Below, one piece after another: positions 1,407 through 64,000 of a stretch of 64,000 nt of DNA. Source of the stretch: Agelas oroides. Taxonomy: Eukaryota; Porifera; Demospongiae; Agelasida; Agelasidae. The stretch spans positions 25,745,316 through 25,809,315 of the forward strand of contig OX422183.1 of the NCBI GenBank assembly GCA_949130485.1. Reading direction: 5' to 3'. Below the pieces are notes generated by a model. That model was not told where the DNA came from. It saw only the letters and a list, made by a program, of their open reading frames with translations, and did no database searches. The number at the start of each line of letters is the position of its first letter. Position 1 is the stretch's first letter. The position numbers and the translations under genes are program-made.

Positions 1407-2680
1407 CCACCCGACACCCCAAGCACTGCTGTGTAGCTATCTCTTGGATACACTGACACCACAGTGGGAATGGAGGGATTTAGCTAAGTGTTTGCAGCTA
1501 CACTACCTCCAAGGTTGAACTTCTTACAAGCTAGTATCTATATATAGTCAAAGAAGTTAATTGCGAGAGTACAAAAATCATATACAGCTAGGCTGTAATC
1601 TTGATGACATTCTGCCAAATGCATGGCATTGCAAGTGAAGCAAAACAAATGAGCAAAAGTTTCCCCACTAGGGTGAGGTCTTGGGGTATTGGGCTACCAC
1701 GACACACGCAACACTACATGGCCAGAACAAGTCCCAGGTAACACCTGATGGCAGAGCCAGAGCCCCTCTCCTCCTTGCAGCTGGCTAGGCTGACACCCCT
1801 GGTTCCACTCCGTGTCCAGAGTCTGTGGGATGTAAGGGAGGAACAGAGCGGCCCCTAGACCATATCGAGCAGCCAACTCGCATAGCTCTGAACCTTCTAA
1901 CAGCTTTGGTTATGACTGTTAGTCCCCACAGTCTCCATGTAGGACACTCCCCAACAGCTGCGCACAGTGTGGGTACTAGTAAAAGTGTTTTTCTCCTATT
2001 TATACTGCTATAAAATGCGTCCCTAATAATTATGGGTTTCGAAACAATGAATATCATTAACTTCACGTTAGTTACATTTCCGCATGCGCTTGCAGCTAAT
2101 TAGCCCTCGCGGTCGCGGTGCCAGACTCTCTCGCGGAGCCAGATAACCAGATCCAAACGCAGTTTTTGTCACTACTGGCAGGACCCGTGTGAAGGTCTGC
2201 AGTCGAGATCAAAAGAAAAATGTTGGCTTCAGGCTAGGCTATAGCTAGAGTTACCAGCTAGCCACACGGTCATGGCTGAGAGTCAGCGTATGACAGACAG
2301 TGCTGCATTGCGTCTCAGATGATGTGGTGTCTTCTGGTTTCCCATGGTGTCTCATCATCTATCAGGTACAGGGTGCACTTGCAGATTACTCTGAGATGAG
2401 CAGTCAGTAAGATATCAAGGTGATTGTGTAACCAACATAGGCAGTGTTGTCCCATTGTGTCTCATGATGTCACATGGGATCTCATGTTACATGATAGTTA
2501 GTGTTGTCTGATGGTTTCAAGGTTTCATGTCGAAGCACCCTGATGACCAGTGTGTTTGAAGCATATCTACCAAAAAACAAGTCACTTTGCCATAACTGCC
2601 CAACCCATTTGAGCCATAAATGCCCCACCCATTTATGATGTAAATGCCACACCTATTCAAGCGATGAATGTCTCATTCCC
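1407..2680. repeat. Linker L0 (left-truncated first linker)
   Basis: This complex, non-satellite sequence corresponds to the right-hand half of the later linkers. It contains the anchor at 1717, a TATTTATACTGCTATAAAA segment at 1997-2015, a shortened GC-rich part (about 2080-2150) that lacks much of the CG alternation seen in L1-L5, and three copies of a 24-bp minisatellite at 2591-2662. Short open frames occur on both strands (for example 1876-1694 minus). They begin with TTG or other non-ATG codons and are disrupted in another linker copy, so they are not called as genes. Confidence 0.85.
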
Positions 2681-5600
2681 GATTTGCCAACTGCTACTGG
2701 TGCACCACCACTTGACACACAACTGCCTCTGTTGCTGTCCCACTATCCATTCCGTGTTCTTCTGTTTCTGTGTCTTTCACTTTTGTCCATCTGTCCCTGT
2801 CCCTATGTCCCTGTTTCCTTCCATGTATCCCTGTCCTGGAAATTTTCACCTAATGAACATCGATTTGCCAGCTGGTGTTGGTGCACCCCCACTTGATGCA
2901 CAACTGCCTCTGTTGCTGTCCCACTATCCATTCCATGTTCTGCTTCTGTGTTTTTCACTTTGTCCATCTGTCCCTGTCCCTACGTCCCTGTCAATGTCCC
3001 TGTCACTATCCCTGTTCCCCTGTCCCTGTTGCTGTCACTATCCCTTGCCCCTGTCCCTATTCCTCTGTCCCTTTCTCTGTTCTAATCCGTCTGTCCCTGT
3101 CCCTATGTCTGTCCTTCTCCCCTTGCCCCGGTACCTGTCCCTGTCCATCTTCCTCTGTCCCAGGTCTGTCTCTGATCTCGTACTGGTACCAGTCCTTGCT
3201 TCTTTGTCATCTTCCCTCTCCCCTCCACTGTGTCCTTCTGCTCCTGTTTTTATCCCTCCAGGACCATTTCTGGCCCCCTCTTCCCGTTACCCCATTCCTG
3301 TCCCTCTGTCCCTGTCTCTCTGTCCCTGTCCCTCTGTCCCTGTCACTCTGTCCGTGTCTCAGTCGCTATTCCAGTCCCTCTTTCCTTATTCTTGTCCGTC
3401 TGTTGTGCTTCTGTTCCTGTCCAAGTCCCCCTTTCCATGTCCCTTTCCGTAGATCCCCGTTTCTGTCCTCCTTTCCCTGTTCCTGTCCCTCTGTGTCTGT
3501 CACAGTCCCTGTCCTTCGTTCCATGTCCATCTGCCCTTTCTCTGTTCCTGTACCTTTCGCTATGATTCCTTCCTGTCCCTCTCTCAGCCTGTCACTGTCC
3601 CTCTGTCCCTTTCCCTACCTCTGTCAATTGTCCCTCCGTCCCTGTGTCCTTGTCCGTCTGTCCTCGCCCCTATTTCTGTGTCCCTCTCCCTGTTCACCTG
3701 TCCCCCTGTCCCTGTCCTCTGTTCTGATCCCTGTCCCTCTGTCCTTGTCCCCTGTCACTCTCCCTGTCCCTCTGTGCTGTCCCTCTGTCCTTCTCCATCT
3801 GTTCTTGTCCCTCTGTCCTTGTCCCTCTGTCCTTGTCCCCTGTCACTTTCCCTGTCCCCCTGTCCCTGTCCCTCTGTTCCGGTCCCGTTCCCTCTGTCCT
3901 TGTCCCCTGTCCCCCTGTCGCTGACCTTCTGTCCCTGTCCCTCTGTGCTATCCCTCTGTCCTTCTCCCTCTGTCCTTGTCTCTCTGTCCCTGTCCCTCTG
4001 TCCTTGTTCCCTGTCACTCTTCCTGTACCCCTGTCCCTGTCCCTGTTTGTGTGTCCCTCTCCATGTACCTCTGTCCCTGTACCTGTCTCCTTGTCTCTCT
4101 CCCTGACCTTGACCCTATCTCCCTCTTCCTTGTCCATATCCCTCTGTCCCCATACATCTGCCCTGTCACTCTGTCCCTCTTCCTGTCTTTGTCCTATCCA
4201 TCTGTTCATATCCCTTTGTCCTTGTACATCTGGCCCTGTCACTCTGTCCCTGTTCCTGTCTTTGTCCTTATCCATCTCCCTCCTCCATGTCCCCATCCCT
4301 CTGTCCCTGTCCCTCTGTCCTTGGCCCTCTGTCACTCTGTCGCTGTACCCTGTCACTCTGTCCCTGTTCCTGTCCTTGTCCGTCTGTCCTTGTCCCTGTT
4401 CCTATTTGTGTCCCTCTCCCTGTCCCTCTATCCATGTACCTGTCTTCCTGTCTGTGTCCCTGTCCTCGTCTCTATCTCCCTCTTCCTTGTCCATATCCCT
4501 ATGTCCCTGTACATCTCGCCCTGTCACTCTGTTCCTGTTTCTTCGTCCCTATTCATCTCCCTCTACCATTTCCATATCCCTTTGTCCCTGTACATCTCGC
4601 TCAGTCACTCTCTCCCTGTTCCTGTCTTTGTCCCTATCCATCTCCCTCTTCCTTGTCCCTATCCCTCTGTCCATGTACATCTGACCCTGTCACTCTCCTC
4701 CTTTTCCTGCCTTTGTTCCCTTCCATCTCCCTCTTCCTTGTACCTATCCCTCTGTCCCTGTCCCTCTGTCCCTGTCCCTCTGTCCTTGGCCCTCTGTCAC
4801 TCTGTCGCTGTTCCCTGTCACTCTGTCCCTGTTCCTGTCCTTCTCCGTCTGTCCTTGTCCCTGTCCCTATTTGTGTCCCTCTCCCTGTCCCTCTGTTCCT
4901 GTACTTATCTCCCTGTCTCTGTCCCTCTCCTCATCTCTATCTCCCTTTTCTTTATCCATATCCTTTTGTCCCTGTACATCTCGCCCTGTCACTCTCTCCC
5001 TGTTCCTGTCTTTGTCCCTATCCATCTCCCTCTTCCTTGTTCAAATCTGTTTCTCCCTGTACATCTGGCCCTGTCACTCTGTTCCTGTTCCTGTCCATCA
5101 ATCTCTGTCCCTGTCACTGTCCCTCTATCCCTCTCTCTGTCCCTGTTCTCCTGTCTATGTCCCAGTCCCAGTCCTTGTGCCTATGTATCTCCCTCTTCCC
5201 TGTCCTTCTATCCTGGTCCCTCTGTCCCCATTCCTTTCTATCTGTCATAGTCCCTGTCCCTTTGCTGTCATTCATTTTCTATCCCTCCTGTCATTGTCCC
5301 TGTCCCTGTCACTCTATCCTTCTTCCTGTTCCTGTCCCTCTGCAGCTGTCCCTGTCCTTCAACCCCTGTCCCTGTTCCTGTCGTTATCACTACCGCTCTG
5401 TCCCTGTCTGTGTCACCCTGTCCCCGTTCCTGTCCCTCTCCCGGTTCCCATTCGTCTGTCCCTCTGTTTCTCTTTCCCTCTGTTCCTGTCCCTATGTCTG
5501 ACCTTGTCCTTTTCCCCCGGTCTGACTATACCTGTCGCTCCCTGTCCTTGTTCCTCTCTTTGTCCCTGCCCTTGTTCCTGTTCCTGTCCCTGTCTGTGTC

Positions 5601-11193: not shown

Positions 11194-11658
11194 GATGTTG
11201 AAGTTCTTAGAAGCTAGTAGCTATAGATAGTGAAGAGTACAAAAATCATATAAGCTAGGCAGTAATCTTCATGACATTCTGCCAAATGCATTGCAAGTGA
11301 AGCAAAAATAATGAGCAAAAGTTTCCCCACTAGGGTGAGGTCTTGGGGTATTGGGCTACCACGACACATGCAACACTACATGGCCAGAACAAGTCCCAGG
11401 TAACACCTGATGGCAGAGCCAGAGCCCCTCTCCTCCTTGCAGCTGGCTAGGCTGACACCCCTGGTTCCACTCGGTGTCCAGAGTCTGTGGGATGTAAGGG
11501 AGGAACAGAGCGGCCCCTAGACCATATCGAGCAGCCAACTCGCATAGCTCTGAACCTTCTAACAGCTTTGGTTATGACTGTTAGTCCCCACAGTCTCCAG
11601 GTAGGACACTCCCCAACAGCTGCGCACAGTGTGGGTAGTAGTAAAAGTGTTTTTCTCC

Positions 11659-18961: not shown

Positions 18962-19065
18962 TATTAACTCTGAGTGCATGACTTGTGTTAAATTTGCCAT
19001 GTCCAAAGTTGTTTGGTGTATAACTTATATGTATATAGGCTGCCCTAACTGTTCTGAGGGTTATT
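18962..19065. repeat. Non-satellite island in A2 (variant)
   Basis: Shares the GTGTTAAATTTGCCATGTCC core and ATATGTATATA stretch with the A1 island, but the left 30 bp differ (CTGAGTGCATGACTT in place of CTACCCCTTGTTCATAG). This copy has therefore been rearranged on its left side. Confidence 0.78.
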
Positions 19066-21270
19066 GTCCCTATCCCTGTCCCTCTGTCCCTGTTTGTGTC
19101 ACCCTGTTCATGTTCCTGTCCTTTGTCACTGTTCCTCTGTCCCTGTCCCTATGTCTCTCCTTGTTTCTCTATCCCTGTCTGACTATTCCCATCGCTGTTC
19201 CTCTGTCCTTGTTTCTCTGTGCCCGGTCGACTATCCCTGTCGCAGTCCCTCTGTCCCTGTCATATCCTGTCCCTATCCTGTCCCTGTCCATCTGTCCCTC
19301 TGTCCCTGTCCTGTCCACGTTCCTGTCCCTCCTCCTGTCCCTTTCTTCCTGTTCCTATGTCCCATTGCCTGTTTGTGTGTCCATGTCCCAGTCCATTTCC
19401 CTCCACCCCTGTCCTTCTCCCCTGGTCCCTCTGTCCCTCTCTATCTGTTCCTGTCACTTAGTCCCTGTTCCCTGTTCCTGGGTACTCTCCCTTTCCCTGT
19501 ACCTGTGCCTTTGTCCCAAACTCTTTGTCCTTGTCCCTCTGTCCCTAACTCTTTCTCCTCTGTCCCTGTCTGTCTGTCCATCTTCCAGTTCCTCTACCTG
19601 TCCATCTCCCTCTCTCCCTGTCCCTGTCCCTCTGTCCGTATCTCAGTCCCTGTCCCTCTCTCCCTGTTCCTATGTCCCTTTCCCTGTCTCTCTCTCCCTG
19701 CCTCTTTCACTCTGTCCCCCTCTCCCTGTCCCTGTTTGTCCTTCTGTCCTTGACTCTACCCTCTCTTTTGTTGTTATACCTGGTTCTACTAGGTTCATTA
19801 TGACATCCCCCACCTTTTGTAGTTGTACTGGATTACCCTTAACTCTACTTGGTTGTACTTGAGTCTACCCAACTCTATGCTATAATGCTCTACCAGGTTT
19901 AGTTGAACTCTCCTACAGTCTGCTACGTTGTACTACTAGAATCTATACAACACTCCGTATCCCACTCTACCGCAGCTTCTAATGGAATCTGCCTGACTCC
20001 ACTACACTCTACCATAGCTCTACCTGATTCTAAGGGACTGTGCTTGACTCCACCTCTCTCTGCCATGGCTCTATCTGATTCTACAGGAGAGTATTTGCCT
20101 CCACCTAACTTCACCATGGATTTCCTGGTTCCAATCAATGCCACCCTTACTCCACATCTTTCTGGTTCTACTTGACTGTTGTTATTTTACAAAGATAGTG
20201 GTTTTGTTGCTTCTTACTTTCTTTTTTCCTACTTATATGCACTTACTCCTTACTAAAGCATCCCTGCATGTCTCAAGAAGTCATGCTAGAACTAGGGCAG
20301 AATCTGCATCTAGTGAGGTTTTCTGTATTGAAGAAGTCCCACAATCAACTTTACACTGACATGAATTCTGCACAATGTAACACGCTATTCCAGCAGAAAC
20401 CCTTCCCCCTGACTCACCTCAGAACCAACCAACTCCCCCTCCACTTATCCCCAGTAACAGTCTAACCTCTTTCCACAACACGTACACTAGCTCCCAGCAT
20501 GAAGAGTCCTTATCTCGATTCCTTCAATTATTCAGCCCTACCCTAGCATACATGTAATCTGGAACAAATGGCCATCACCCTCCCACCCTCTCCCTCTCCC
20601 TCAAAGATCCCTAAGGATTAGGGGAAGACATAATTTCCACAGTTTTGTGAGTGTTACCTCAGCAAATGGGAGCTACGATGTGCATCGTAGCAAAGTTGGC
20701 GCTCCCCCACCCTTCACCCCAACCACTGCTGTGTAGCTACCTCTTGGATACACTGACAACGCAGTGGGAATGGAGGCGATGTAGCTAGCTACATTACCTG
20801 CAAGGTTGAACTTCTTAGAAGCTAGTAGCTATAGATAGTCAAGAGTACAAAAATCATATAAGCTAGGCAGTAATCTTGATGACATTCTGCCAAATGCATG
20901 CAAGTGAACCAAAAAAATGAGCAAAAAGTTTCCCCACTAGGGTGAGGTCTTGGGGTATTGGGCTACCACGACACACGCAACACTACATGGCCAGAACAAG
21001 TCCCAGGTAACACCTGATGGCAGAGCCAGAGCCCCGCCCCTCTCCTCCTTGCAGCTGGCTAGGCTGACACCCCTGGTTCCACTCCGTGTCCAGAGTCTGT
21101 GGGATGTAAGGGAGGAACAGAGCGGCCCCTAGACCATATCGAGCAGCCAACTCGCATAGCTCTGAACCTTCTAAAAGCTTTGGTTATGACTGTTAGTCCC
21201 CACAGTCTCCATGTAGGACACTCCCCAACAGTTGCGCACAGTGTGGGTAGTAGTAAAAGTGTTTTTCTCC

Positions 21271-43400: not shown

Positions 43401-45138
43401 TTCCCTCTCTCCCAGTTTCCGTCCCTGTCCTTCTGTCCTGGTCCCTCTGTCTCTATCCATCTGTTCCTGTCACTCAGTCCCTGTTGCCTATTCCTGTCTA
43501 TCTGTCACGGTCCCTGTCCATCTGTCATTGTCTCTGTCCCTGTGCATTTCGCTGTCCTTATTGCTGTCCCCAACTCGCTGTCCCTCTGTCCCTGTCCCTA
43601 TGAGTTCCTTAAGCTTGTCCCTCTGTCCCTATTAACTCTACCCCTTGTTCATAGTGCCATGGGTGCATGTGTTAAATTTGCCATGTCCAAAGTTGTTTGG
43701 TGTATAATTTATATGTATATAAGCTGCCTTAACTGTTCTGAGGGTTGTTGTCCCTATCCCTGTCCCTCTGTCCCTGTTTGTGTCACCCTGTTCATGTTCC
43801 TGTCCTTTGTCACTGTTCCTCTGTCCCTGTCCCTATGTCTCTCCTTGTTTCTCTGTCCCTGTCTGACTATTCCCATTGCTGTCCCTCTGTCCTTGTTTCT
43901 CTGTGCCTGTGTGACTATCCCTGTCACAGTCCCTCTGTCCCTGTCATATCTTGTCCCTGTCCTGTCCCTGTCCTGTCCCTGTCCTGTCCCTGTCCTGTCC
44001 CTGTTCATCTGTCCCTCTGTCCCTGTCTTGTCCACGTTCCTGTCCGTGTTCCTGTCCCTTTCTTCCTGTTCCTATATCCCATTGCCTGTTTGTGTGTCCA
44101 TATCCCAGTCCATTTCCCTCCACCCCTGTCCTTCTCCCCTGGTCCCTCTGTTCCTCTCTATCTGTTCCTGTCACTCAGTCCCTGTTCCCTGTTCCCTGTT
44201 CCTGGGTACTGTCTTTCTGTCACAGTCCCTGTCTCTCTGTCCCTGTCGATCTGGCCTTGTCTATGTCCCTGTCCCTATCGCTGTCCCAAACTACCTTTCC
44301 CTGTCCTTATCCCTCTGTCCCTGTCCCTTTTCCTGTCCCTATTCTTGTCCCTCTGTCCTGTCTGTGTCACCCTGTCCCTGTTCCTGTCACTTTGTCTCTG
44401 TTTCTCCATCCCTTTCCCTGTTTCTATCTTTCTGTCTCAGTCACTGTTTGTATGTCCCTCCGTTCCTGTCCCTGTCCATTTCCCTGTCCATCTCCCTCTC
44501 TCCTTGTCCCGGATGTTGTCTCTCTATTCCTCCCTCTGTCCCTCTGTCCCTATCCATGTTCTCCTATCTCTGCCCCTGTCCTTGTCCTTGTGCCTATTTG
44601 TCTCCCTCTTCTTCTTTCCAAGTCCCTCTGTGCCTGTCCATCTGTTCCTGTCACTGTCCCTGTTCCTATCTATCTGTTACAGTCGCCCTATCATTGTACC
44701 CCTGTCACTCTGTTCCTGTCCCTGTGCCTTTGTTCCTGTCCCTTTCCGTCTGTCCGTGTGCTGGCCTCTGTCCATGTCCCTCTGTTCCTGTGACCGTCGA
44801 CGTCCTTGTCCTTGTCACTATCCCTCTCTCCCTGTCCCTGTACCTGTGCCTTTGTCCCAAACTCTTTGTCCTTGTCCCTCTGTCCCTAACTCTTTCTCCT
44901 CTGTCCCTGTCTGTCTGTCCATCTTCCAGTTCCTCTACCTGTCCATCTCCCTCTCTCCCTGTCCCTGTCCCTCTGTCCGTATCTCAGTCCCTGTCTTTCT
45001 CTCCCTGTCCCTGTCCCTGTCCCTCATTTCCTATCCATGTCCCTCTCTCCCTGTTCCTATGTCCCTTTCCCTGTCTCTCTCTCCCTGCCTCTTTCGCTCT
45101 ATCCCCCTCTCCCTGTCCCTGTGTTTGTCCTTCTGTCC
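34448..45138 (+). repeat. Satellite block A4
   Basis: About 10.7 kb of hexamer satellite with two leader copies at the start. The right half (about 41190-43620) is closely similar to A1 (about 5600-8100), at an offset of about 35.5 kb. From 40492 on it is repeated with one noticed difference at +12426 bp. Its middle shares long blocks with A5 (for example near 35700-37060 with 50600-51900). Confidence 0.92.
43630..43748. repeat. Non-satellite island in A4
   Basis: Nearly the same as the A1 island, with a few substitutions (for example TAGTGCCATGG for TAGTACCATGG, and ATATAAGC for ATATAGGC). The satellite on both sides also matches A1, so the island moved with its surroundings. Confidence 0.8.
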
Positions 45139-47384
45139 TTGACTCTACCCTCTCTTTCGTTGATATACCTGGTTCTACTAGGTTCATTATGACATCCCCC
45201 AACTTTTGTAGTTGTACTGGATTACCGTTAAGTCTACTTGGTTGTACTTGACTCTACCCAACTCTATGCTATAATGCTCTACCAGGTTTAGTTGAACTCT
45301 CCTACAGTCTGCTACGTTGTACTACTAGAATCTATACAACACTCTGTATCCCACTCTTCCGCAGCTTCTAATGGAATCTGCCTGACTCCACTACACTCTA
45401 CCATAGCTCTACCCGATTCTAAGGGACTGTGCTTGACTCCACCTCTCTCTGCCATGGCTCTATCTGATTCTACAGGAGAGTATTTGACTCCACCTCACTT
45501 CACCATGGATTTCCTATTTCCAATCAATGCCACCCTTACTCTACATCTTTCTGGTTCTACTTGACTGTTGTAATTTTGCAAAGATAGTGGTTTTGTTGCT
45601 TCTTACTTCCTTTTTACCTACTTATATGCAGTTACTTCTTACTAAAGCATCCCTGCATGTCTCAAGAAGTCATGCTCGTAGAACTAGGGCAGAATCTGCA
45701 TCTATTGAGGTTTTCTGTATTGAAGAAGTCCCACAATCAACTTTACACTGATATGAATTCTGCACAATGTAACACGCTATTCCAGCAGAAACCCTTCCCC
45801 CTGACTCACCTCAGAACCAGCCAACTCCCCGTCCACTTATCCCCAGTAACAGTCTAACCTCTTTCCACAACATGTACACTAGCTCCCAGCATGAAGAGTC
45901 CTTATCTGGATTCCTTCAATTATTCAGCCCTACCCTAGCATACATGTAATCTGGAACAAAAGGCCGTCACCCTCCCCCCCTCTCCCTCTCCCTCAAAGAT
46001 CCCTACGGATTAGGGGAAGGCATCATTTGCACAGTTTTGTGAGTGTTACCTCAGCAAATGGGAGCTACGATGTGCGTCGTAGCAGTGTTGGCGCTCCCCC
46101 ACCCGACACCCCAACCACTGCTGTGTAGCTATCTCTTGGATACACTGACAACGCAGTGGGAATGGAGGCGATGTAGCTAGCTACACTACCTGCAAGGTTG
46201 AAGTTCTTAGAAGCTAGTAGGTATAGATAGTCAAGAGTACAAAAATCATATAAGCTAGGCAGTAATCTTGATGGCATTCTGCCAAATGCATGCAAGTGAA
46301 CCAAAAAAATGAGCAAAAAGTTTCCCCACTAGGGTGAGGTCTTGGGGTATTGGGCTACCACGACACACGCAACACTACATGGCCAGAACATGTCCCAGGT
46401 AACACCTGATGGCAGAGCCAGAGCCCCTCTCCTCCTTGCAGCTGGCTAGGCTGACACCCCTGGTTCCACTCCGTGTCCAGAGTCTGTGAGATGTAAGGGA
46501 GGAACAGAGCGGCCCCTAGACCATATCGAGCAGCCAACTCGCATAGCTCTGAACCTTCTAACAGCTTTGGTTATGACTGTTAGTCCCCACAGTCTCCATG
46601 TAGGACACTCCCCAACAGCTGCGCACAGTGTGGGTACTAGTAAAAGTGTTTTTCTCCTATTTATACTGCTATAAAATGCGTCCCTAATAATTATGGGTTT
46701 CGAAACCATGAATATCATTAACGTCTAGTTAATTGCATTTCCGCTTGCGCGTGCGCGCGTTCTCTTGCACCTCATTAGCCCTCGCGGTCGCGGAACCAGA
46801 CTCGGACTCCGCGAGCTAACCAGATCCAAACGCAGTTTTTGTCACTACTGGCAGGAGCCGTGTGAAGGCCTGCAGTCTAGATCAAAAGACAAATGTTACC
46901 TTCAGGCTAGGGTATAGCTGGAACTAACAGCTAGCTACACGATCATGTCTGAGAGTCAACGTATGTTACGTATCAGACAGTGCTGCTATACGTCACAGAT
47001 GATGTGGTGTCTTCTGGTTTCCCATGGTGTCTCATCGTCTAGCAGGTACAGGGTGCACTTGCAGATTGCTCTGAGATGAACAGTCAGTAAGATATCAAGG
47101 TGATTGTGTAACCAACATAGGCAGTGTTGTCCCATTGTGTCTCATGATGTAACATGGGATCTCATCATGTTACATGATGGTTCGTGTTGTCTGATGGTTT
47201 CAAGGTTTCATGTCGAAGCACCCTGATGACCAGTGTTTTTGAAGCATATCTACCAAAAAAAAGTCACTTGGCCATAACTGCCCAACCCATTTGAGCCGTA
47301 AATGCCCCACCTATTTATGATGTAAATGCCACACCCATTTATGACAAATGCCACACCTATTCAAGCGATGAATGTCTCATTCCC
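45139..47384. repeat. Linker L4
   Basis: Complete linker with the anchor at 46378 and TATAAAA at 46670. Compared with L1-L3 it has its own substitutions (TCTTGCACC for TCGCTTGCACC near the CpG stretch, ATGTCCCAGG for AAGTCCCAGG at the anchor). All noticed private variants are shared with L5 but not with other linkers. No gene is seen. Confidence 0.88.
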
Positions 47385-50300
47385 GATTTGCCAACTGGTG
47401 CTGGTGCACCCCCACTTGACACACAACTGCCTCTGTTGCTGTCCCACTATCCATTCCGTGTTCTTTTGTTTCTGTGTCTTTCACTTTTGTCCATCTGTCC
47501 CTGTCCCTATGTCCCTGTTTGCTTCCATGTATCCCTGTCCTGGAAATTTTCACCTAATGAACATCGATTTGCCAGCTGGTGTTGGTGCATCCCCACTTGA
47601 CGCACAACTGCCTCTGTTGCTGTCCCTCTATCCATTCCATGTTCTGCTTCTGTGTCTTTCACTTTGTCCGTCTGTCACTATCCCTACGTCCCTGTCAATG
47701 TCCCTGTCCCTTTCCCTACGTCTGTCAATTGTCCCTCCGTCCCTGTCTCCTTGTCCGTCTGTCCTCGCCTCTATTTCTGTGTCCCTCTCCCTGTTTACCT
47801 GTCCCCCTGTCCCTGTCCTCTGTTCCGATACCTGTCCCTCTGTCCTTGTACCCTGTCACTCTCCCTGTCACTCTCCCTGTCCCCCTGTCCGTGTCCCTCT
47901 GTTCCGGTCCCGTTCCCTCTGTCCTAGTCCCCTGTCCCCCTGTTGCTGACCCTCTGTCCCTGTCCCTCTGTGCTATCCCTCTGTCCTTCTCCCTCTGTCC
48001 TTGTCCCTCTGTCCCTGTCCCTCTGTCCTTGTTCCCTGTAACTCTCCCTGTCCCTCTGTCGTGTCCCTCAGTCCCTGTCCCTTGGCACTCTCCCTGTCCC
48101 CCTGTCCCTCTCCCTCTGTCGTGTCCCTCAGTCTCTGTCCTTCGTTCCCTATTCCAGTCCATTTGTCCCCTTTCATGTGTCCTTGTCCATCTGTCCTTTC
48201 CCCTATTTCTGTGTAGCTCTACATGTTCCCCTGTCCCCCTGTTCCCCTGTCCCCCTGTCCCTGTCCCTCTGTCGCTCTCACTGTCCCTCTGTCGCTCTCA
48301 CTGTGTCCCCGTTCCTACCTATGTTTCTATCCACCTCCCTCTTCCTTCTCCCCATCCCTCTGTCCCTGTACATCTCTCCCTGTCCCTCTGTTCCTGTCCC
48401 TGTCCCTCTGTCCTTATCCATCTGTCACGCTGTCCCTGTTCCAGTCCTTGTCCGTCTGTCTCTGTTCCTCTTTGTGTATATACCTCTCCTTGTCCCTCTG
48501 TCCCTGTACCTTTCTCTGTCCCTGTCGTCATCTCAATCTCCCTCTTCATTATCCATATCCCTTTGTCCCTGTACATCTGGCCCTGTCACTGTGTTCCTGT
48601 TCCTGTCTTTGTCCCGATCCATCTCCCTCTTCCATGTCCCCATCCCTCTGTCCTTGTCCCTCTGTCCTTGTCCCTCTGTCCCTGTCCCTCTGTCCCTGTC
48701 CCTCTATCCCTGTCCCTCTGTCTTTGTCCCTGTCCTTGTCCCTCTGTTTCTGTCTCATCTCTACTTGTCCCTATACCTCTTTCCTTATTCCAGTGCCTGC
48801 GTCCTTGTGCATCTGTCCTTCCCGTATATCTGTGCCCCTCACCCTGTCCTCCTGTCCCACTGTCCCTGTCCCTCTGTCCCTGTCCCTGTCCCTCTGTCCT
48901 TTTTCCCTGTCACTCTCCCTGTACCCCTGTCCCTGTCCCTATTTGTGTCCCTCTCCATGTCCCTCTGTCCCTGTACCTGTCTCCTTGTCTCTCTTCCTGT
49001 CCTTGTCTCTATCTCCGTCTTCCTTGTCCATATCCCTTTGTCCCTGTACATCTGGCACTGTCACTCTGTCCCTGTTCCAGTCTTTGTCCATATTCATCTC
49101 CATCTTCCTTGTCCCTATCCGTCTGTCCCTGTACATCTGGGCCTGTCGCTCTCTCCCTCTTCCTGTCTTTGTCCTATCCATCCGTCCATATCCCTTTGTT
49201 CTTGTACATCTGGCCCTGTCACTCTGTCCGTGTTCCTGTCTTTGTCCTTATCCATCTCCCTCCTCCATGTCCCCCTCCCTCTGTACCTGTCCCTCTGTCC
49301 TTGGCCATCTGTCACTCTGTCGCTGTTCCCTGTCACTCTGTCCCTGTTCCTCTCCTTGTCCGTCTATCCTTGTCCCTGTCCCTATTTGTGTCCCTCTCCC
49401 TGTCTCTGTCCCTGTCCTCATCTCTTTCTCCCTTTACCTTATCCGTATCCCTTTGTCCCTGTACATCTCGCCCTGTCACTCTGTGCCTGTTCCTGTCTTT
49501 GTCCCTATCCATCTCCCTCTTCCTTGTCCCCATCCCTCTGTCCCTGTACATCTCTACTTTTCCCTCTGTCCCTGTCCCTCTGTCCTTGTCCCTCTGTCTC
49601 TGTCCCTTTGTCCTTGTCCCTCTGTCCCTGTCCCTCTGTCCTTGTCCCCAGTCACTCTCCCTGTCCCCCTGTCCTTGTCCCTCGGTTGTGTCCCTCAGTC
49701 CCTGTCCCTCTGTCTCTGTCTCATCTCTCCTTGTCCTTATACCTCTTTCCTTATTCCAGTCCCTGTGTCCCTGTCCCTATGTCCTTGTGCATCTGTCCTT
49801 CACCTACTTCTGTGTCCCTCTCCCTGTCCTCCTATGATGCTGTCCCTGTCCCTTTGTCCCTGTCCCTCCGTCCCTGTCCCTGTCCTCTGTCTTTGTCTCT
49901 CTGTCTCTGTCTCTCTATGGCACTCACCCTGTCCACCTGTCCCTGTCCCTATTTGTGTCCCTCTCCATGTCCCTCTGTCCCTGTACCTCTCTCCTTGTCT
50001 CTGTCCCTGTCCTTGTCTCTATCTCCCTCTTCCTTGTCCATATCCCTTTGTCCCCATACATCTGCCACTGTCACTGGGTGTTTGTGTCCATATCCATCTC
50101 CGTCTTCCTTGTCCCTATCCCTCTGTCCCTGTTCCTGTCCATCTGTCTCTGTCCCTCTCACTGTCACTCTATCCCGCTCTCTGTCCCTGTGTCCCTTTCA
50201 ATTTTTACATCCCCCTGTCCCCGTTCTCCTGTCTATGTCCCAGTCCCAGTCCTTGTCCCTATGTATCTCCCTCTTCCCTGTCTTTCTATCCTGGTCCCTC

Positions 50301-53300
50301 TGTCCCCGTTCCTTTCTATCTGTCGTAGTCCCTGTCCCAGTCCCTCTGTCCACCAGTCTCTGTCCCTATGTGTGTCCTTGTCCCTGTCACTCTATCCCTG
50401 TTCCTGTTCCTGTCCCTCTGCAGCTGTCCCTGTCCTTCAACCCCTGTCCCTGTACCTGTCGTTATCACCCTCGGTCCATCCCTGTCTGTATCACCCTGTC
50501 CCTGTTCCTGTCCCTCTCCAGGTTCCCTGTTCCTGTCACCCTGTCCCTGTCCCTCTGTTCCGGTCCCATTTCCTCTGTCCTTGTCCCCTGTCCCCCTGTC
50601 GCTGACCCTCTGTCCCTGTCCCTCTGTGGTATCCCTCTGTCCTTCTCCCTCTGTCCTTGTCCCTCTGACCCTGTCCCTCTGTCCATGTTCCCTGTCACTC
50701 TCCCTGTCCAATTGTCCCTGTTCCTCTGTCGTGTCCCTCAGTCCCTGTCCCCTGGCACTCTCCCTGTCCCCCTGTCCCTCTCCCTCTGTCGTGTCCCTCA
50801 GTCCCTGTCCTTCTTTCCCTATTCCAGTCCATTTGTCCCCTTTCATGTGTCCTTGTCCATCTGTCCTTTCCCCTATTTCTGTGTATCTCTACCTGTTCCC
50901 CTGTCCCTGTTCCCCTGTCCCTGTCCCTCTGTCCCTCTCACTGTGTCCCCGTTCCTGCCTATGTTTCTATCCACCTCCCCCTTCCTTCTCTCCATCCCTC
51001 TGTCCCTGTACATCTCTCCCTGTCCCTCTGTTCCTGTCCCTGTCCCTCTCTCCTTATCGATCTGTCACGCTGTCCCTGTTCCAGTCCTTGTCCGTCTGTC
51101 TCTGTTCCTCTTTGTGTACCTCTCCTTGTCCCTCTGTCCCTGTACCTATCTCCCTTTCTCTGTCCCTGTCCTCATCTCAATCTCCCTCTTCATTATCCAT
51201 ATCCCTTTGTCCCTGTACATCTGGCCCTGTCACTGTGTTCCTGTTCCTGCCTTTGTCCCGATCCATCTCCCTCTTCCATGTCCCCATCCCTCTGTCCTTG
51301 TCCCTCTGTCCTTATCCCTCTGTCCTTGTCCCTTTGTCCCTGTCCCTCTATCCCTGTCCCTCTGTCCTTGTCCCTGTCCTTGTCCCTCTGTTTCTGTCTC
51401 ATCTCTACTTGTCCCTATACCTCTTTCCTTATTCCAGTGCCTGCGTCCTTGTGAATCTGTCCTTCCCCTATTTCTGTGTCCCTCTTCCTGTCCTCCTCTC
51501 CCACTGTCCCTGTCCCTCTGTCCCTGTCCCTGTCCCTCTGTCCTTTTTCCCTGTCACTCTCACTGTACCCTTGTCCCTGTCCCTATTTGGGTCCCTCTCC
51601 GTGTCCCTCTGTCCCTGTACCTGTCTCCTTGTCTCTCTTCCTGTCCTTGTCTCTATCTCCGTCTTCCTTGTCCATATCCCTTTGTCCCTGTACATCTGGC
51701 ACTGTCACTCTGTCCCTGTTCCAGTTTTTGTCCATATTCATCTCCATCTTCCTTGTCCATATCCCTCTGTCCCTGTACATCTGGCCCTGTCGCTCTCTCC
51801 CTCTTCCTGTCTTTGTCCTATCCATCCGTCCATATCCCTTTGTTCTTGTACATCTGGCCCTGTCACTCTGTCCCTGTTCCTGTCTTTGTCCTTATCCATC
51901 TCCCTCCTCCTTGTTCATATCCGTTTATCCCTGTAGATCTGGCCCTGTCACTCTGTTCCTGTTCCTGTCCATCTGTATCTGTCCCTGTCACTGTCCCTCT
52001 ATCCCTCTCTCTGTCCCTGTGTCCCTTTCAATTTTTCCGTCCGTCTGTCCCTGTTCTCCTGTCTATGTCCCAGTCCCAGTCCTTGTGCCTATGTATCTCC
52101 CTCTTCCCTGTCCTTCTATCCTGGTCCCTCTGTCCCCGTTCCTTTCTATCTGACATAGTCCCTGTTCCTTTGCTGTCATTCATTTCCTATCCCTCCTGTC
52201 ATTGTCCCTCTCCCTGTCACGCTATCCCTCTTGCTGTTCCTGTCCCTCTGCAGCTGTCCCTGTCCTTCAACCCCTGTCCCTGTTCCTGTTGTTATCACCA
52301 CTGCTCTGTCCCTGTCTGTGTCACCCTGTCCCCGTTCCTGTCCCTCTCCCGGTTCCCATCCGTCTGTCCCTCTGTTTCTCTTTCCCTCTATTCCTGTCCC
52401 TATGTCTGGCCTTGTCCCTTTCACCCGGTCTGACAATACCTGTCGCTCCCTGTCCTTGTTCCTGTTCCTGTCCCTGTCTGTGTCACTTTGTCTGTGTCAC
52501 TCTGTCCGTATCCCTGTCCCTCTGTCCCTGTTTGTGTAACCCTGTTCATCTTCCTGTCCTATGTCCTTGTCCCTCTGTCCCTGTCCCTCTGTCCCTGTCC
52601 CTCTGTCCTTCTCCCTCTCCTTGTCCCTTTGTTTCTGTCTCATCTCTACTTGTCCCTATACCTCTTTCCTTATTCCAGTGCCTGCGTCCTTGTGAATCTG
52701 TCCTTCCCCTATTTCTGTGTCCCTCTTCCTGTCCTCCTCTCCCACTGTCCCTGTCCCTCTGTCCCTGTCCCTGTCCCTCTGTCCTTTTTCCTTGTCACTC
52801 TCACTGTACCCTTGTCCCTGTCCGTATTTGGGTCCCTCTCCGTGTCCCTCTGTCCCTGCACCTGTCTCCTTGTCTCTCTTCCTGTCCTTGTCTCTATCTC
52901 CGTCTTCCTTGTCCATATCCCTCTGTCCCTGTACCTATCTCCCTGTCTCTGTCCCTCTCCTCATCTCTATCTCCCTTTTCTTTATCCATATCCTTTTGTC
53001 CCTGTACATCTCGCCCTATCACTCTGTCCCTGTTCCTCTCTTTGTCCCTATCCATCTCCCTCTTCCTTGTTCATATCCGTTTATCCCTGTAGATCTGGCC
53101 CTGTCACTCTGTTCCTGTTCCTGTTCATCTGTATCTGTCCCTGTCACTGTCCCTCTATCCCTGTTGTCCTGTCTATGTCCCAGTCCCAGTCCTTGTGCCT
53201 ATGTATCTCCCTCTTCCCTGTCCTTCTATCCTGGTCCCTCTGTCCCCGTTCCTTTCTATCTGTCATAGTCCCTGTTCCTTTGCTGTCATTCATTTCCTAT

Positions 53301-56300
53301 CCCTCCTGTCATTGTCCCTGTCCCTGTGACTCTATCCCTCTTCCTGTTCCTGTCCCTCTGCAGCTGTCCCTGTTCTTCAACCCCTGTCCCTGTTCCTGTT
53401 GTTATCACCACTGCTCTGTCCCTGTCTGTGTCACCCTGTCCCCTTTCCTGTCCCTCTCCCAGTTCCCATCCGTCTGTCCCTCTGTTTCTCTTTCCCTCTG
53501 TTCCTGTCCCTATGTCTGCCCTTGTCCCTTTCACCCGGTCTGACAATACCTGTCGCTCCCTGTCCTTGTTCCTCTCTTTGTCCCTGCCCTTGTTCCTGTC
53601 CCTGTCCCTGTCTGTGTCACTTTGTCTGTGTCACTCTGTCCGTATCCCTGTCCCTCTGTCCCTGTTTGTGTAACCCTGTTCATCTTCCTGTCCTATGTCA
53701 CTGTTCGTCTGTCCCTGTCCCTATGTCTGTCCTTGTTTCTCTGTCCATGTCTGACTATTCCTGTCACTGTCCCTCTGTCCCTGTCATGTCCTGTCCCTGT
53801 GCTGTCCCTGTCCACCTGTCCCTCTGTCCCTCTCTCCCTGTCCTGTCCATGTTCCTGTCCGTGTTCCTGTGCCTTTCTTCCTGTTCCTATGTCCCATTGC
53901 CTGTTTGTGTGTCCATGTCCCAGTCCATTTCCCTCCACCCCTGTCCTTCTCCCCTGGTCCCTCTGTCCCTGTCTATCTGTTCCTGTCACTCAGTCCCCGT
54001 TCCCTGTTCCTGGGAGCTGTCTATCTGTCACAGTCCCTATCCCTCTGTCCCTGTCGATCTGGCCTTGTCTTTTTCCCTGTCCCTATTGCTGTCATTTTCT
54101 TCCTGTCTCTATCGCTGTCCAAAACTACCTTTTTGTCTCTCCCTCTGTCCCTATCCCCCTGTCCCTGTCCATTTTCCTGTCCCTATCCTTGTCTGTCTGT
54201 CCTGTCTGTGTCACCCTGTCCCTGTTCCTGTCCCTCTTTCCTTATTCTTCTCCATCTGTTGTCCTTCTGTTCCTGTCCAAGTCCCCCTTTCCATGTCCAT
54301 TTCCGTAGATCCCCATTTCTGTCCTCCTTTCCCTGTTCCTGTCCCTGTCTGTCTGTCACAGTCCCTGTCCTTCAGTCCGTGTCCATCTGTCATGTCTCTG
54401 TTGCTGTTCCTTTCGCTGTCATTCTTTCCCGTCCCCCTCTCACTCTGTCACTGTCCTTCTCTCCCTTTCCCTATGTCTGCCAATTGTCCCTCCGTCCCTG
54501 TTTACTCTATCCCTGTCCCTGTGTCCTTGTCCATCTGTCCTCGCCCCTATTGTGTCCCTCTCCCTGACCCCCTGTCATTGTCCCTCTGTTCCTGTCCCTG
54601 TCCCTCTGTCTTTGTCCCCAGTCACTCTCCCTGTCCCCCGGTCCTTGTCCCTCTGTCTTGTACCTCAGTCCCTGTCCCTCTGTCTCTGTCTCATCTCTCC
54701 TGGTCCCTATACCTCTTTCCTTATTCCAGTCCCTGTGTCCCTGTCCCTATGTCCTTGTGCATCTGTCCTTCACCTACTTCTGTGTCCCTCTCCCTGTCCT
54801 CTTGTCACACTGTGCCTGTCCCTTTGTCACTGTCCTCTGTCCTTGTCTCTCTGTCCCTTTCCCTCTGTCCTTGTCCCCTGTCACTCACCCTGTCCCCCTG
54901 TCTCTATTTGTGTCCCTCTCCATGTCCCTCTGTCCCTGTACCTGTCTCCTTGTCTCTGTCCCTGTCCTTGTGTCTATCTCACTCTTCCTTGTCCATATCC
55001 ATTTGTCCCCATACATCTGGCACTGTCATCCTGTCCCTGATCCTTTCTGTGTCCATATCCATCTCCGTCTTCCTTGTCCCTATCCCTCTGTCCCTGTACA
55101 TCTGGCCCTGTCACTCTGTTCCTGTTCCTGTCCATCTGTCTCTGTCCCTGTCACTGTCCCTCTACCTCTCTCTGTCCCTGTGTCCCTTTCAATTTTTCCG
55201 TCCATCTCTCCCTGTTCTCCTGTCTATGTCCCAGTCCCAGTCCTTGTGCCTATGTATCTCCCTCTTCCCTGTCCTTCTATCCTAGTCCCTCTGTCCCCAT
55301 TCTTTTCTAACTGTAATAGTCCCTGTCCCTTTGCTGTCATTGATTTCCTATCCCTGTCCCAGTCCCTCTGTCCCACAGTCTCTGTCCCTATGTGTGTCCT
55401 TCTCCCTGTCACTCTATCCATTCCCCTGTTCCTATTCCCGTCCCTTTGCAGCTGTCCCTCTCCTTCAGCCCCAGTCCCTGTTTCTGGCGTTATCACTATC
55501 GCTCTGTCCCTGTCTGTGTCACCCTGTCCCCATTCCTGTCCCTTTGTCCCTTTTCCTCTGTCCCTTTCTCTGTTCCCATCCGTCTGTCCCTGTCCCTCTG
55601 TTTCTCTTTCCCTTTGTTGCTGTCACTGCGTCTGGCCCTGTCCCTCTATCCCTGTTTGACTATTCCTGTCGGTCCCTGTCCTTGTTCCTCGCTTTGTCCC
55701 TGCCCTTGTTCCTGTTCCTGTCCCTGTCTGTGTCACTTTGTCTCTGTCATTCTGTCCCTGTTCCTGTCCCTTTGTTTCTGTTCCTCTGTCCCAGTCCTTG
55801 TTTTGTCCGTCCCTGTCCCGGTCCATTTCCCTCTCTCCCAGTTTCCGTCCCTGTCCTTCTGTCCTGGTCCCTCTGTCTCTATCCATCTGTTCCTGTCACT
55901 CAGTCCCTGTTGCCTATTCCTGTCTATCTGTCACGGTCCCTGTCCATCTGTCATTGTCTCTGTCCCTGTGCATTTCGCTGTCCTTATTGCTGTCCCCAAC
56001 TCGCTGTCCCTCTGTCCCTGTCCCTATGAGTTCCTTAAGCTTGTCCCTCTGTCCCTATTAACTCTACCCCTTGTTCATAGTGCCATGGGTGCATGTGTTA
56101 AATTTGCCATGTCCAAAGTTGTTTGGTGTATAATTTATATGTATATAAGCTGCCTTAACTGTTCTGAGGGTTGTTGTCCCTATCCCTGTCCCTCTGTCCC
56201 TGTTTGTGTCACCCTGTTCATGTTCCTGTCCTTTGTCACTGTTCCTCTGTCCCTGTCCCTATGTCTCTCCTTGTTTCTCTGTCCCTGTCTGACTATTCCC

Positions 56301-57564
56301 ATTGCTGTCCCTCTGTCCTTGTTTCTCTGTGCCTGTGTGACTATCCCTGTCACAGTCCCTCTGTCCCTGTCATATCTTGTCCCTGTCCTGTCCCTGTCCT
56401 GTCCCTGTCCTGTCCCTGTCCTGTCCCTGTTCATCTGTCCCTCTGTCCCTGTCTTGTCCACGTTCCTGTCCGTGTTCCTGTCCCTTTCTTCCTGTTCCTA
56501 TATCCCATTGCCTGTTTGTGTGTCCATATCCCAGTCCATTTCCCTCCACCCCTGTCCTTCTCCCCTGGTCCCTCTGTTCCTCTCTATCTGTTCCTGTCAC
56601 TCAGTCCCTGTTCCCTGTTCCCTGTTCCTGGGTACTGTCTTTCTGTCACAGTCCCTGTCTCTCTGTCCCTGTCGATCTGGCCTTGTCTATGTCCCTGTCC
56701 CTATCGCTGTCCCAAACTACCTTTCCCTGTCCTTATCCCTCTGTCCCTGTCCCTTTTCCTGTCCCTATTCTTGTCCCTCTGTCCTGTCTGTGTCACCCTG
56801 TCCCTGTTCCTGTCACTTTGTCTCTGTTTCTCCATCCCTTTCCCTGTTTCTATCTTTCTGTCTCAGTCACTGTTTGTATGTCCCTCCGTTCCTGTCCCTG
56901 TCCATTTCCCTGTCCATCTCCCTCTCTCCTTGTCCCGGATGTTGTCTCTCTATTCCTCCCTCTGTCCCTCTGTCCCTATCCATGTTCTCCTATCTCTGCC
57001 CCTGTCCTTGTCCTTGTGCCTATTTGTCTCCCTCTTCTTCTTTCCAAGTCCCTCTGTGCCTGTCCATCTGTTCCTGTCACTGTCCCTGTTCCTATCTATC
57101 TGTTACAGTCGCCCTATCATTGTACCCCTGTCACTCTGTTCCTGTCCCTGTGCCTTTGTTCCTGTCCCTTTCCGTCTGTCCGTGTGCTGGCCTCTGTCCA
57201 TGTCCCTCTGTTCCTGTGACCGTCGACGTCCTTGTCCTTGTCACTATCCCTCTCTCCCTGTCCCTGTACCTGTGCCTTTGTCCCAAACTCTTTGTCCTTG
57301 TCCCTCTGTCCCTAACTCTTTCTCCTCTGTCCCTGTCTGTCTGTCCATCTTCCAGTTCCTCTACCTGTCCATCTCCCTCTCTCCCTGTCCCTGTCCCTCT
57401 GTCCGTATCTCAGTCCCTGTCTTTCTCTCCCTGTCCCTGTCCCTGTCCCTCATTTCCTATCCATGTCCCTCTCTCCCTGTTCCTATGTCCCTTTCCCTGT
57501 CTCTCTCTCCCTGCCTCTTTCGCTCTATCCCCCTCTCCCTGTCCCTGTGTTTGTCCTTCTGTCC
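47385..57564 (+). repeat. Satellite block A5
   Basis: About 10.2 kb of hexamer satellite with internal mosaic structure. A block near 48000-49200 recurs at about +2671 bp (50700-51900). A part of that second copy (about 51360-51680) recurs again at +1241 bp, ending at the 52917/52918 breakpoint. From 52918 the block is the right copy of the 12,426-bp duplication. The longest stop-free frame in the window (48177-52433, 1418 codons) lies here and reads as Ser/Leu/Pro/Cys/Val repeats only. Confidence 0.92.
56056..56174. repeat. Non-satellite island in A5
   Basis: Identical to the A4 island at 43630-43748, as expected from the 12,426-bp duplication. Confidence 0.8.
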
Positions 57565-59810
57565 TTGACTCTACCCTCTCTTTCGTTGATATACCTGGTT
57601 CTACTAGGTTCATTATGACATCCCCCAACTTTTGTAGTTGTACTGGATTACCGTTAAGTCTACTTGGTTGTACTTGACTCTACCCAACTCTATGCTATAA
57701 TGCTCTACCAGGTTTAGTTGAACTCTCCTACAGTCTGCTACGTTGTACTACTAGAATCTATACAACACTCTGTATCCCACTCTTCCGCAGCTTCTAATGG
57801 AATCTGCCTGACTCCACTACACTCTACCATAGCTCTACCCGATTCTAAGGGACTGTGCTTGACTCCACCTCTCTCTGCCATGGCTCTATCTGATTCTACA
57901 GGAGAGTATTTGACTCCACCTCACTTCACCATGGATTTCCTATTTCCAATCAATGCCACCCTTACTCTACATCTTTCTGGTTCTACTTGACTGTTGTAAT
58001 TTTGCAAAGATAGTGGTTTTGTTGCTTCTTACTTCCTTTTTACCTACTTATATGCAGTTACTTCTTACTAAAGCATCCCTGCATGTCTCAAGAAGTCATG
58101 CTCGTAGAACTAGGGCAGAATCTGCATCTATTGAGGTTTTCTGTATTGAAGAAGTCCCACAATCAACTTTACACTGATATGAATTCTGCACAATGTAACA
58201 CGCTATTCCAGCAGAAACCCTTCCCCCTGACTCACCTCAGAACCAGCCAACTCCCCGTCCACTTATCCCCAGTAACAGTCTAACCTCTTTCCACAACATG
58301 TACACTAGCTCCCAGCATGAAGAGTCCTTATCTGGATTCCTTCAATTATTCAGCCCTACCCTAGCATACATGTAATCTGGAACAAAAGGCCGTCACCCTC
58401 CCCCCCTCTCCCTCTCCCTCAAAGATCCCTACGGATTAGGGGAAGGCATCATTTGCACAGTTTTGTGAGTGTTACCTCAGCAAATGGGAGCTACGATGTG
58501 CGTCGTAGCAGTGTTGGCGCTCCCCCACCCGACACCCCAACCACTGCTGTGTAGCTATCTCTTGGATACACTGACAACGCAGTGGGAATGGAGGCGATGT
58601 AGCTAGCTACACTACCTGCAAGGTTGAAGTTCTTAGAAGCTAGTAGGTATAGATAGTCAAGAGTACAAAAATCATATAAGCTAGGCAGTAATCTTGATGG
58701 CATTCTGCCAAATGCATGCAAGTGAACCAAAAAAATGAGCAAAAAGTTTCCCCACTAGGGTGAGGTCTTGGGGTATTGGGCTACCACGACACACGCAACA
58801 CTACATGGCCAGAACATGTCCCAGGTAACACCTGATGGCAGAGCCAGAGCCCCTCTCCTCCTTGCAGCTGGCTAGGCTGACACCCCTGGTTCCACTCCGT
58901 GTCCAGAGTCTGTGAGATGTAAGGGAGGAACAGAGCGGCCCCTAGACCATATCGAGCAGCCAACTCGCATAGCTCTGAACCTTCTAACAGCTTTGGTTAT
59001 GACTGTTAGTCCCCACAGTCTCCATGTAGGACACTCCCCAACAGCTGCGCACAGTGTGGGTACTAGTAAAAGTGTTTTTCTCCTATTTATACTGCTATAA
59101 AATGCGTCCCTAATAATTATGGGTTTCGAAACCATGAATATCATTAACGTCTAGTTAATTGCATTTCCGCTTGCGCGTGCGCGCGTTCTCTTGCACCTCA
59201 TTAGCCCTCGCGGTCGCGGAACCAGACTCGGACTCCGCGAGCTAACCAGATCCAAACGCAGTTTTTGTCACTACTGGCAGGAGCCGTGTGAAGGCCTGCA
59301 GTCTAGATCAAAAGACAAATGTTACCTTCAGGCTAGGGTATAGCTGGAACTAACAGCTAGCTACACGATCATGTCTGAGAGTCAACGTATGTTACGTATC
59401 AGACAGTGCTGCTATACGTCACAGATGATGTGGTGTCTTCTGGTTTCCCATGGTGTCTCATCGTCTAGCAGGTACAGGGTGCACTTGCAGATTGCTCTGA
59501 GATGAACAGTCAGTAAGATATCAAGGTGATTGTGTAACCAACATAGGCAGTGTTGTCCCATTGTGTCTCATGATGTAACATGGGATCTCATCATGTTACA
59601 TGATGGTTCGTGTTGTCTGATGGTTTCAAGGTTTCATGTCGAAGCACCCTGATGACCAGTGTTTTTGAAGCATATCTACCAAAAAAAAGTCACTTGGCCA
59701 TAACTGCCCAACCCATTTGAGCCGTAAATGCCCCACCTATTTATGATGTAAATGCCACACCCATTTATGACAAATGCCACACCTATTCAAGCGATGAATG
59801 TCTCATTCCC
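57565..59810. repeat. Linker L5
   Basis: Copy of L4 at +12426, with no difference noticed. Anchor at 58804, TATAAAA at 59096, minisatellite at 59699-59794. No gene is seen. Confidence 0.88.
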
Positions 59811-62800: not shown

Positions 62801-64000
62801 TCCTTGTCCCTGTCACTCTATCCCTGTTCCTGTTCCTGTCCCTCTGCAGCTGTCCCTGTCCTTCAACCCCTGTCCCTGTACCTGTCGTTATCACCCTCGG
62901 TCCATCCCTGTCTGTATCACCCTGTCCCTGTTCCTGTCCCTCTCCAGGTTCCCTGTTCCTGTCACCCTGTCCCTGTCCCTCTGTTCCGGTCCCATTTCCT
63001 CTGTCCTTGTCCCCTGTCCCCCTGTCGCTGACCCTCTGTCCCTGTCCCTCTGTGGTATCCCTCTGTCCTTCTCCCTCTGTCCTTGTCCCTCTGACCCTGT
63101 CCCTCTGTCCATGTTCCCTGTCACTCTCCCTGTCCAATTGTCCCTGTTCCTCTGTCGTGTCCCTCAGTCCCTGTCCCCTGGCACTCTCCCTGTCCCCCTG
63201 TCCCTCTCCCTCTGTCGTGTCCCTCAGTCCCTGTCCTTCTTTCCCTATTCCAGTCCATTTGTCCCCTTTCATGTGTCCTTGTCCATCTGTCCTTTCCCCT
63301 ATTTCTGTGTATCTCTACCTGTTCCCCTGTCCCTGTTCCCCTGTCCCTGTCCCTCTGTCCCTCTCACTGTGTCCCCGTTCCTGCCTATGTTTCTATCCAC
63401 CTCCCCCTTCCTTCTCTCCATCCCTCTGTCCCTGTACATCTCTCCCTGTCCCTCTGTTCCTGTCCCTGTCCCTCTCTCCTTATCGATCTGTCACGCTGTC
63501 CCTGTTCCAGTCCTTGTCCGTCTGTCTCTGTTCCTCTTTGTGTACCTCTCCTTGTCCCTCTGTCCCTGTACCTATCTCCCTTTCTCTGTCCCTGTCCTCA
63601 TCTCAATCTCCCTCTTCATTATCCATATCCCTTTGTCCCTGTACATCTGGCCCTGTCACTGTGTTCCTGTTCCTGCCTTTGTCCCGATCCATCTCCCTCT
63701 TCCATGTCCCCATCCCTCTGTCCTTGTCCCTCTGTCCTTATCCCTCTGTCCTTGTCCCTTTGTCCCTGTCCCTCTATCCCTGTCCCTCTGTCCTTGTCCC
63801 TGTCCTTGTCCCTCTGTTTCTGTCTCATCTCTACTTGTCCCTATACCTCTTTCCTTATTCCAGTGCCTGCGTCCTTGTGAATCTGTCCTTCCCCTATTTC
63901 TGTGTCCCTCTTCCTGTCCTCCTCTCCCACTGTCCCTGTCCCTCTGTCCCTGTCCCTGTCCCTCTGTCCTTTTTCCCTGTCACTCTCACTGTACCCTTGT
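59811..64000 (+). repeat. Satellite block A6 (cut by window edge)
   Basis: First 4.2 kb of the sixth satellite block, a copy of the start of A5. It carries the two leader copies (from 59811) and the first parts of both members of the 2.67-kb internal repeat. It contains the single noticed difference between the two large copies (62076). Confidence 0.9.

Follow-up and report, generated by a model that had tools for sequence, protein, structure and literature searches.

The tandem units of a macrosatellite in the sponge Agelas oroides probably carry a small-RNA gene with a polymerase III-type promoter

The human RNU2 locus is reported to hold 5-82 copies of a 6.1-kb unit containing U2 (PMC4132748), and the RNU2 unit outside the U2 gene to be largely composed of interspersed repeats (PMC3795722). 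For a sponge RNase P RNA gene, signals of the type used by RNA polymerase III, i.e. a proximal sequence element (PSE), a TATA box and a run of T, are reported (PMC4287351). A search of the open-licence literature for a sponge macrosatellite, a small nuclear RNA (snRNA) satellite or a polymerase III array yielded nothing on point. Here we describe a 64,000-nucleotide stretch of DNA from Agelas oroides (C1:25745316-25809315, hereafter the window), located on a contig of 32.7 Mb in a genome of 259.3 Mb and 141 contigs. This stretch forms the left end of a macrosatellite that runs in one orientation to about C1:26348600 and whose units quite likely consist of a polymerase III type-3 small-RNA gene and a spacer of hexamer satellite. 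An earlier, sequence-only reading of the window had stated that no family of this design was described. This was too strong, as each unit of human RNU2, itself a macrosatellite, holds one snRNA gene.

The linker copies of the window start at positions 1407, 10922, 20707, 33167, 46099 and 58525, all in the same orientation, and are separated by C+T-rich blocks. In 200-bp windows the C+T-poor linker measures some 2.5-2.7 kb, and the six cores are spaced by 9662, 9612, 12452, 12935 and 12426 bp. A 27-mer from the linker core, searched with up to three mismatches, matched the genome 55 times (52 forward, 3 reverse), and the reversed-pattern control did not match at all. Forty-nine of the 55 matches lie in a single orientation within C1:25747183-26348604 and therefore define an array of about 601 kb, in which the core-to-core spacing ranges from 5906 to 31716 bp with a median of 11862 bp. 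The array was read at 25 linker places and in three edge pieces, with C1:26.009-26.327 Mb left out. These results agree with the sequence-only reading, which had recognized a nested macrosatellite built from a conserved linker and a spacer in which a hexamer prevails, had counted at least five units of 9.6-12.9 kb in one orientation and had proposed the search of the linker against the host genome that now extends the array to more than 600 kb. The conservation of the linker was upheld, and the linker is more than an anchor between satellite blocks: it holds a strongly conserved, gene-like segment on the minus strand with a promoter of the U6/RNase P type, so that the array can no longer be regarded as a satellite without genes.

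For the conservation count 15 array copies were aligned with unit 4 as the reference. The first copy, the copies at 10922 and 20707 (insertion/duplication), two duplicates of the copy at 46099 and five partial or shortened copies were left out. Within the segment 33385-33701, 21 of 317 columns were variable, compared with 81/461 and 84/502 in its flanks and 71/421 in the GTAGAG-type repeats; the stretch between the predicted start and the PSE varied in 4 of 64 columns. Among windows of 318 bp, the one with the least variation starts at 33433 and contained 15 variable columns, whereas the minimum obtained in 2000 column shuffles was 33. On the minus strand the segment begins 28 nt downstream of the first T in the TATA of TATAAATA, and a T run marks its end. 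Its 3' end could be read by means of an anchor in 18 of the 25 copies, 17 of which pass straight into TTTT. A protein encoded in the segment was rejected, with the longer frames broken differently in the four copies translated. Each unit would encode an RNA some 318 nt long, with the gene lying on the other strand from the one on which the satellite reads CCCTGT.

The promoter proposed for this gene consists of a TGATATTCA-like box, AAACCCATA, 26 nt and TATAAATA. It was compared with the promoters of host RNA genes located by Rfam models, where the upstream DNA of two U6, one RNase P RNA, four U2 and one RNase MRP RNA gene was read. The U6 model matched the genome four times, three times over the cut-off, with matches on C18, C5 and C2 (upstream DNA read on C18 and C5), the RNase P RNA model once (C7:447094-447393), the U2 model twelve times, eleven of them over the cut-off on C2, C7, C9 and C19, and the RNase MRP RNA model once. 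Contig C19 alone holds eight of the eleven U2 matches over the cut-off. The layout of AAACCCATA, 26 nt and TATAAATA is identical in the array gene, U6 on C18 and the RNase P RNA gene. In the same three genes the step from TA to GT lies equally far from TATA, with the U6 model match starting 2 nt later, and a TGATATTCA-like box is present further upstream. In the four U2 genes read (4/4), AAACCCATA is found 22 nt before TATAAAA. The 16-letter TATA region TATAAATAGGAGAAAA occurs 51 times in 259 Mb, 46 times in the array, four times in dispersed copies (C1, C2, C3, C18) and once at the RNase P RNA gene, with a count of zero for the reversed pattern; the exact region lies 60-260 bp from 46 of the 49 cores. 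TATAAATAGG is present in 24 of the 25 array copies in the DNA read, two of which are duplicates of a third, and exact GAAACCCATA at a gap of 26 in 19 of the 25. Because of the spacing between PSE and TATA and because of the T run, polymerase III rather than polymerase II would transcribe the array gene. Internal A and B boxes considered on the plus strand were dropped after the minus-strand promoter was found to match those of U6 and RNase P.

Outside the array, the RNA segment is represented by complete or incomplete copies elsewhere on C1 as well as on C2, C3, C6, C15, C17 and C18. The copies on C3, C18 and distal C1 share 293/295, 314/321 and 308/321 aligned bases, respectively, with the array RNA, and in each of them the identity of the RNA exceeds that of each of the three flank segments measured per copy. 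Overall, the RNA is kept at 96-99% of aligned bases compared with 71-91% for the flanks, the latter being upper estimates because the aligner used for the dispersed copies was permissive (shuffled control 169/214). The promoter is intact in the C3 copy, which has lost 27 nt of the RNA, and in the C2 copy, whose match is limited to the first 50 nt. GTAGAG-type repeats follow the C3 and C18 copies as they do in the array linker. CCCTGT occurred zero times or once per strand in the 0.6-4.5 kb read near seven dispersed copies; in the satellite it was counted 89 times in 3 kb. Linker and satellite, joined in one unit by the sequence-only reading, thus occur independently in part: copies of the RNA segment are found elsewhere nearly without CCCTGT, and CCCTGT in three repeats is found on other contigs. 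The latter pattern has 246 forward and 665 reverse matches genome-wide, C2, C3 and C4 being among the matches listed, while a 34-letter satellite pattern has 464 forward matches and one reverse match; the first 100 in positional order were listed, and every one of these falls within the array. A mobile element family, with the conserved segment as its promoter and the array as a tandem burst, would suit the copies present on six other contigs. The C6 copy, a 179-bp piece without TATA, could then be a retrocopy, an origin that is weakened because the match extends about 14 bases above the predicted start. However, the C3 and C18 copies have their flanks and the GTAGAG-type repeats that follow them in common with the array linker, which is the pattern of segmental copies, and the copies outside the array are few. 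We regard the mobile element as very improbable.

Autocorrelation of one satellite block revealed peaks of 0.53, 0.51 and 0.48 at lags of 6, 14 and 20, compared with an expected value of 0.34. Tandem Repeats Finder reported units of 73, 81 and 85 bp in addition to units of 158-443 bp, and blocks of 0.3-3.5 kb recur in the units compared, in a partly changed order. The hexamer core, the 81-85 bp repeats and the kilobase blocks previously noted were all recovered in this way. Strand asymmetry is strong and open frames reach 1463 codons, both of which would suit a satellite that is itself the product, either as a long repeat RNA or as a repetitive protein. In the block tested, however, the open frames of 851 and 140 codons do not exceed the maxima of dinucleotide shuffles (992 and 319), which led us to reject a coding satellite; moreover, the blocks are reshuffled between units and a T run stands between the promoter and the satellite. 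A satellite product appears extremely improbable. Selection for G-quadruplexes was also rejected, since two blocks contained no more of these motifs than dinucleotide shuffles give. The units at 46099 and 58525 differ at one of 12426 positions and their identity continues for another 5607 bp upstream. A third copy, located just past the window, matches over about 6 kb with one difference and then diverges. Unless they are an assembly artefact, the near-identical 12426-bp units are the result of a very recent tandem duplication.

Several observations weigh against a functional RNA gene in the array. AAACCCATA was not found at the RNase MRP RNA gene (115 bp upstream read), which elsewhere is a polymerase III gene, nor at the weaker U6 locus on C5. 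With 3 of 14 columns variable, the TGATATTCA-like box of the array is no better conserved than the flanks. Exact GAAACCCATA is missing from the searched span in five of the 25 copies, and a 150-bp tandem duplication (window 21270-21571) has shifted it in unit 3; copies with a damaged promoter and one edge fragment occur in the array. Of the dispersed copies, those on C18 and distal C1 have altered AAACCCATA boxes and the two checked on C17 have lost both boxes; all of these are probably dead. The unit-4 segment did not fold better than shuffled sequences on either strand (z of 0.21 for the RNA). Among 89 pairs in a seven-sequence alignment of little divergence none was compensatory, nine were one-sided and 16 contained breaks, and hence no RNA structure is supported. 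Finally, the low variation, measured between copies within one genome, could partly reflect gene conversion.

Some of these points would fit a plain non-coding macrosatellite whose conserved island is kept by gene conversion or recent spread and whose boxes are left over from a dead RNA gene in the first unit. The missing GAAACCCATA boxes and the unsupported RNA structure, together with the very recent duplication of a unit and the reshuffled satellite blocks, speak in its favour. Yet low variation is a property of the RNA and of the stretch from start to PSE, not of the remaining linker, the copies at other loci preserve the RNA better than their flanks, and the exact TATA region is kept at nearly all of the cores. 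We therefore consider a plain macrosatellite unlikely.

Rfam models, searched with the array RNA at E values up to 10, yielded only sub-threshold matches at chance level. Neither RF00009 (RNase P RNA) nor RF00030 (MRP RNA) was among them, and one gene of each is located elsewhere in the genome, so that these two identities were rejected. U2 and U6 were likewise set aside: an Rfam scan of the window gave no U2 match, and the genes for both RNAs were found by Rfam at other loci. A tRNA test excluded a tRNA. The repeat (CCCTAA)n is present at two of the five contig ends read; the longest telomere-template-like stretch in the RNA is 6 nt long (shuffles: mean 4.8, maximum 7), and a telomerase RNA was rejected, as no template for the CCCTAA repeat beyond the range of the shuffles was found. 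As expected for an animal gene, no exact 24-mer match turned up in prokaryote or viral contigs.

A protein partner of 7SK directs attention to another candidate. The length of the array RNA and its promoter of PSE and TATA would suit 7SK. HEXIM, which marks the host as an animal, is encoded on C22 (E 2.3e-32), while the Rfam 7SK model did not match anywhere in the genome at E values up to 10, with 19 of 4775 first-look candidates scored. The array RNA might accordingly be viewed as a strongly diverged 7SK, multiplied in tandem as the partner of HEXIM. Against this possibility, 7SK was not among the Rfam matches of the array RNA at E values up to 10, and a diverged 7SK located elsewhere could be missed because so few candidates were scored. 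In addition, the consensus RNA contains no GATC, although the contact of HEXIM with 7SK is reported to be made at a GAUC stem (PMC8406779). A diverged 7SK counterpart is a possible though unsupported identity, and a very improbable one.

If the array consists of small-RNA genes, as we prefer, SNAPc and TBP would recruit RNA polymerase III to each promoter and transcription would stop at the T run. The GTAGAG-type repeats and the 7-10 kb of CCCTGT-type satellite downstream of the terminator would then be a presumably neutral spacer. Spacers may grow and reshuffle through slippage and unequal exchange, and unequal exchange may also add whole units, e.g. by the 12426-bp duplication, while selection on the RNA and the promoter would keep that part nearly invariant. 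The chances are about even that the RNA represents an undescribed family of snRNA-class polymerase III RNAs of about 318 nt, encoded by about 49 genes that provide a large and adjustable dose. An apparently meaningless giant repeat would thereby become a candidate dosage array for an snRNA-class gene in an animal. AAACCCATA is a candidate PSE of the host genome that can be used to find other polymerase III RNAs, and the RNA partner of HEXIM in such animals becomes a testable question.

The features of the window are compiled in the table below. To the left of the array lies a non-LTR (long terminal repeat) retrotransposon with RVT_1 and endonuclease domains; window positions 2-283 resemble, as judged by eye, the end of the same frame, and a PP-loop/zinc-ribbon gene is located further left, beyond the retrotransposon. 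A 49-bp tandem repeat of 2.7 copies (507-636) is situated just outside the left edge. At the right edge the array is broken up and an inverted linker piece (C1:26353792-26354086) adjoins a satellite-like frame on the other strand. The satellite of the window contains a complex insert at 15640-17130, with CCCTAACCCTAA at 15848 and 15884. A frame in this insert, which included satellite as submitted to Pfam, had no Pfam matches; we take it to resemble the end of a Penelope-like element with a GIY-YIG-like motif. A second complex insert is found at 24715-25135, and a short segment of other composition at 43600-43745, about 1-2 kb before the next linker. C+T-poor blocks like the latter are present near 8150, 19000 and 56100; the segment at 43600 was the one read.

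Table 1. Positions of the array, the predicted genes and their promoter elements in the window
Feature	Position	Strand	Basis
Array left end: linker and CCCTGT-type satellite, six linker copies	1407..64000	.	Linker starts, core matches
Predicted RNA gene, unit 1, 318 nt	1659..1976	-	Copy reading
Predicted RNA gene, unit 2, 318 nt, first base changed (CTACCC)	11321..11638	-	Copy reading
Predicted RNA gene, unit 3, 323 nt, altered first base, 150-bp tandem duplication disturbing the promoter	20928..21250	-	
Predicted RNA gene, unit 4, 317 nt, reference of the conservation count	33385..33701	-	Alignment
Predicted RNA gene, unit 5, 318 nt	46320..46637	-	Copy reading
Predicted RNA gene, unit 6, 318 nt	58746..59063	-	Copy reading
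TATAAATAGGAGAAAA, unit 4	33714..33729	-	Exact-pattern search
TATAAATAGGAGAAAA, other units	1989-2004, 11651-11666, 21263-21278, 46650-46665, 59076-59091	-	
PSE-like box GAAACCCATA, unit 4	33756..33765	-	Alignment, promoter comparison
PSE-like box GAAACCCATA, units 1, 2, 5, 6 (starts)	2031, 11693, 46692, 59118	-	
PSE-like box GAAACCCATA, unit 3, displaced	begins 21455	-	
Upstream GTTAATGATATTCA box, unit 4, resembling the upstream boxes of U6 and RNase P RNA	33773..33786	-	
Degenerate GTAGAG-type repeats following the gene, also present after the C3 and C18 copies	32230..32650	-	
Block of CCCTGT-type satellite in unit 4, presumed spacer	34767..45200	.	Composition, autocorrelation, block comparison
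12426-bp unit, repeated at 58525 with one difference	46099..58524	.	Unit comparison

Among known systems, DXZ4 and D4Z4 resemble the locus described here in being large arrays of kilobase units; we know of no snRNA-type gene or hexamer spacer in their units. The human snaR RNAs are multicopy polymerase III RNAs; their genes are tandemly arranged and the RNAs are about 117 nt long. With the type-3 polymerase III genes for U6, RNase P RNA and 7SK the array gene shares an upstream PSE and TATA box and an end at a T run, but the host has four U6 matches (three over the cut-off) and one RNase P RNA gene, in contrast to 49 tandem cores for the array RNA. The closest design is that of human RNU2; the sponge array would be a locus of this type that carries another RNA. 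Both are long head-to-tail arrays of kilobase units with one snRNA-class gene in each, which in the sponge is a predicted gene. They differ in that RNU2 makes U2 by polymerase II, whereas the sponge array displays the promoter layout of U6 and RNase P RNA and a degenerate hexamer spacer of 7-10 kb, with cores 5.9-31.7 kb apart.

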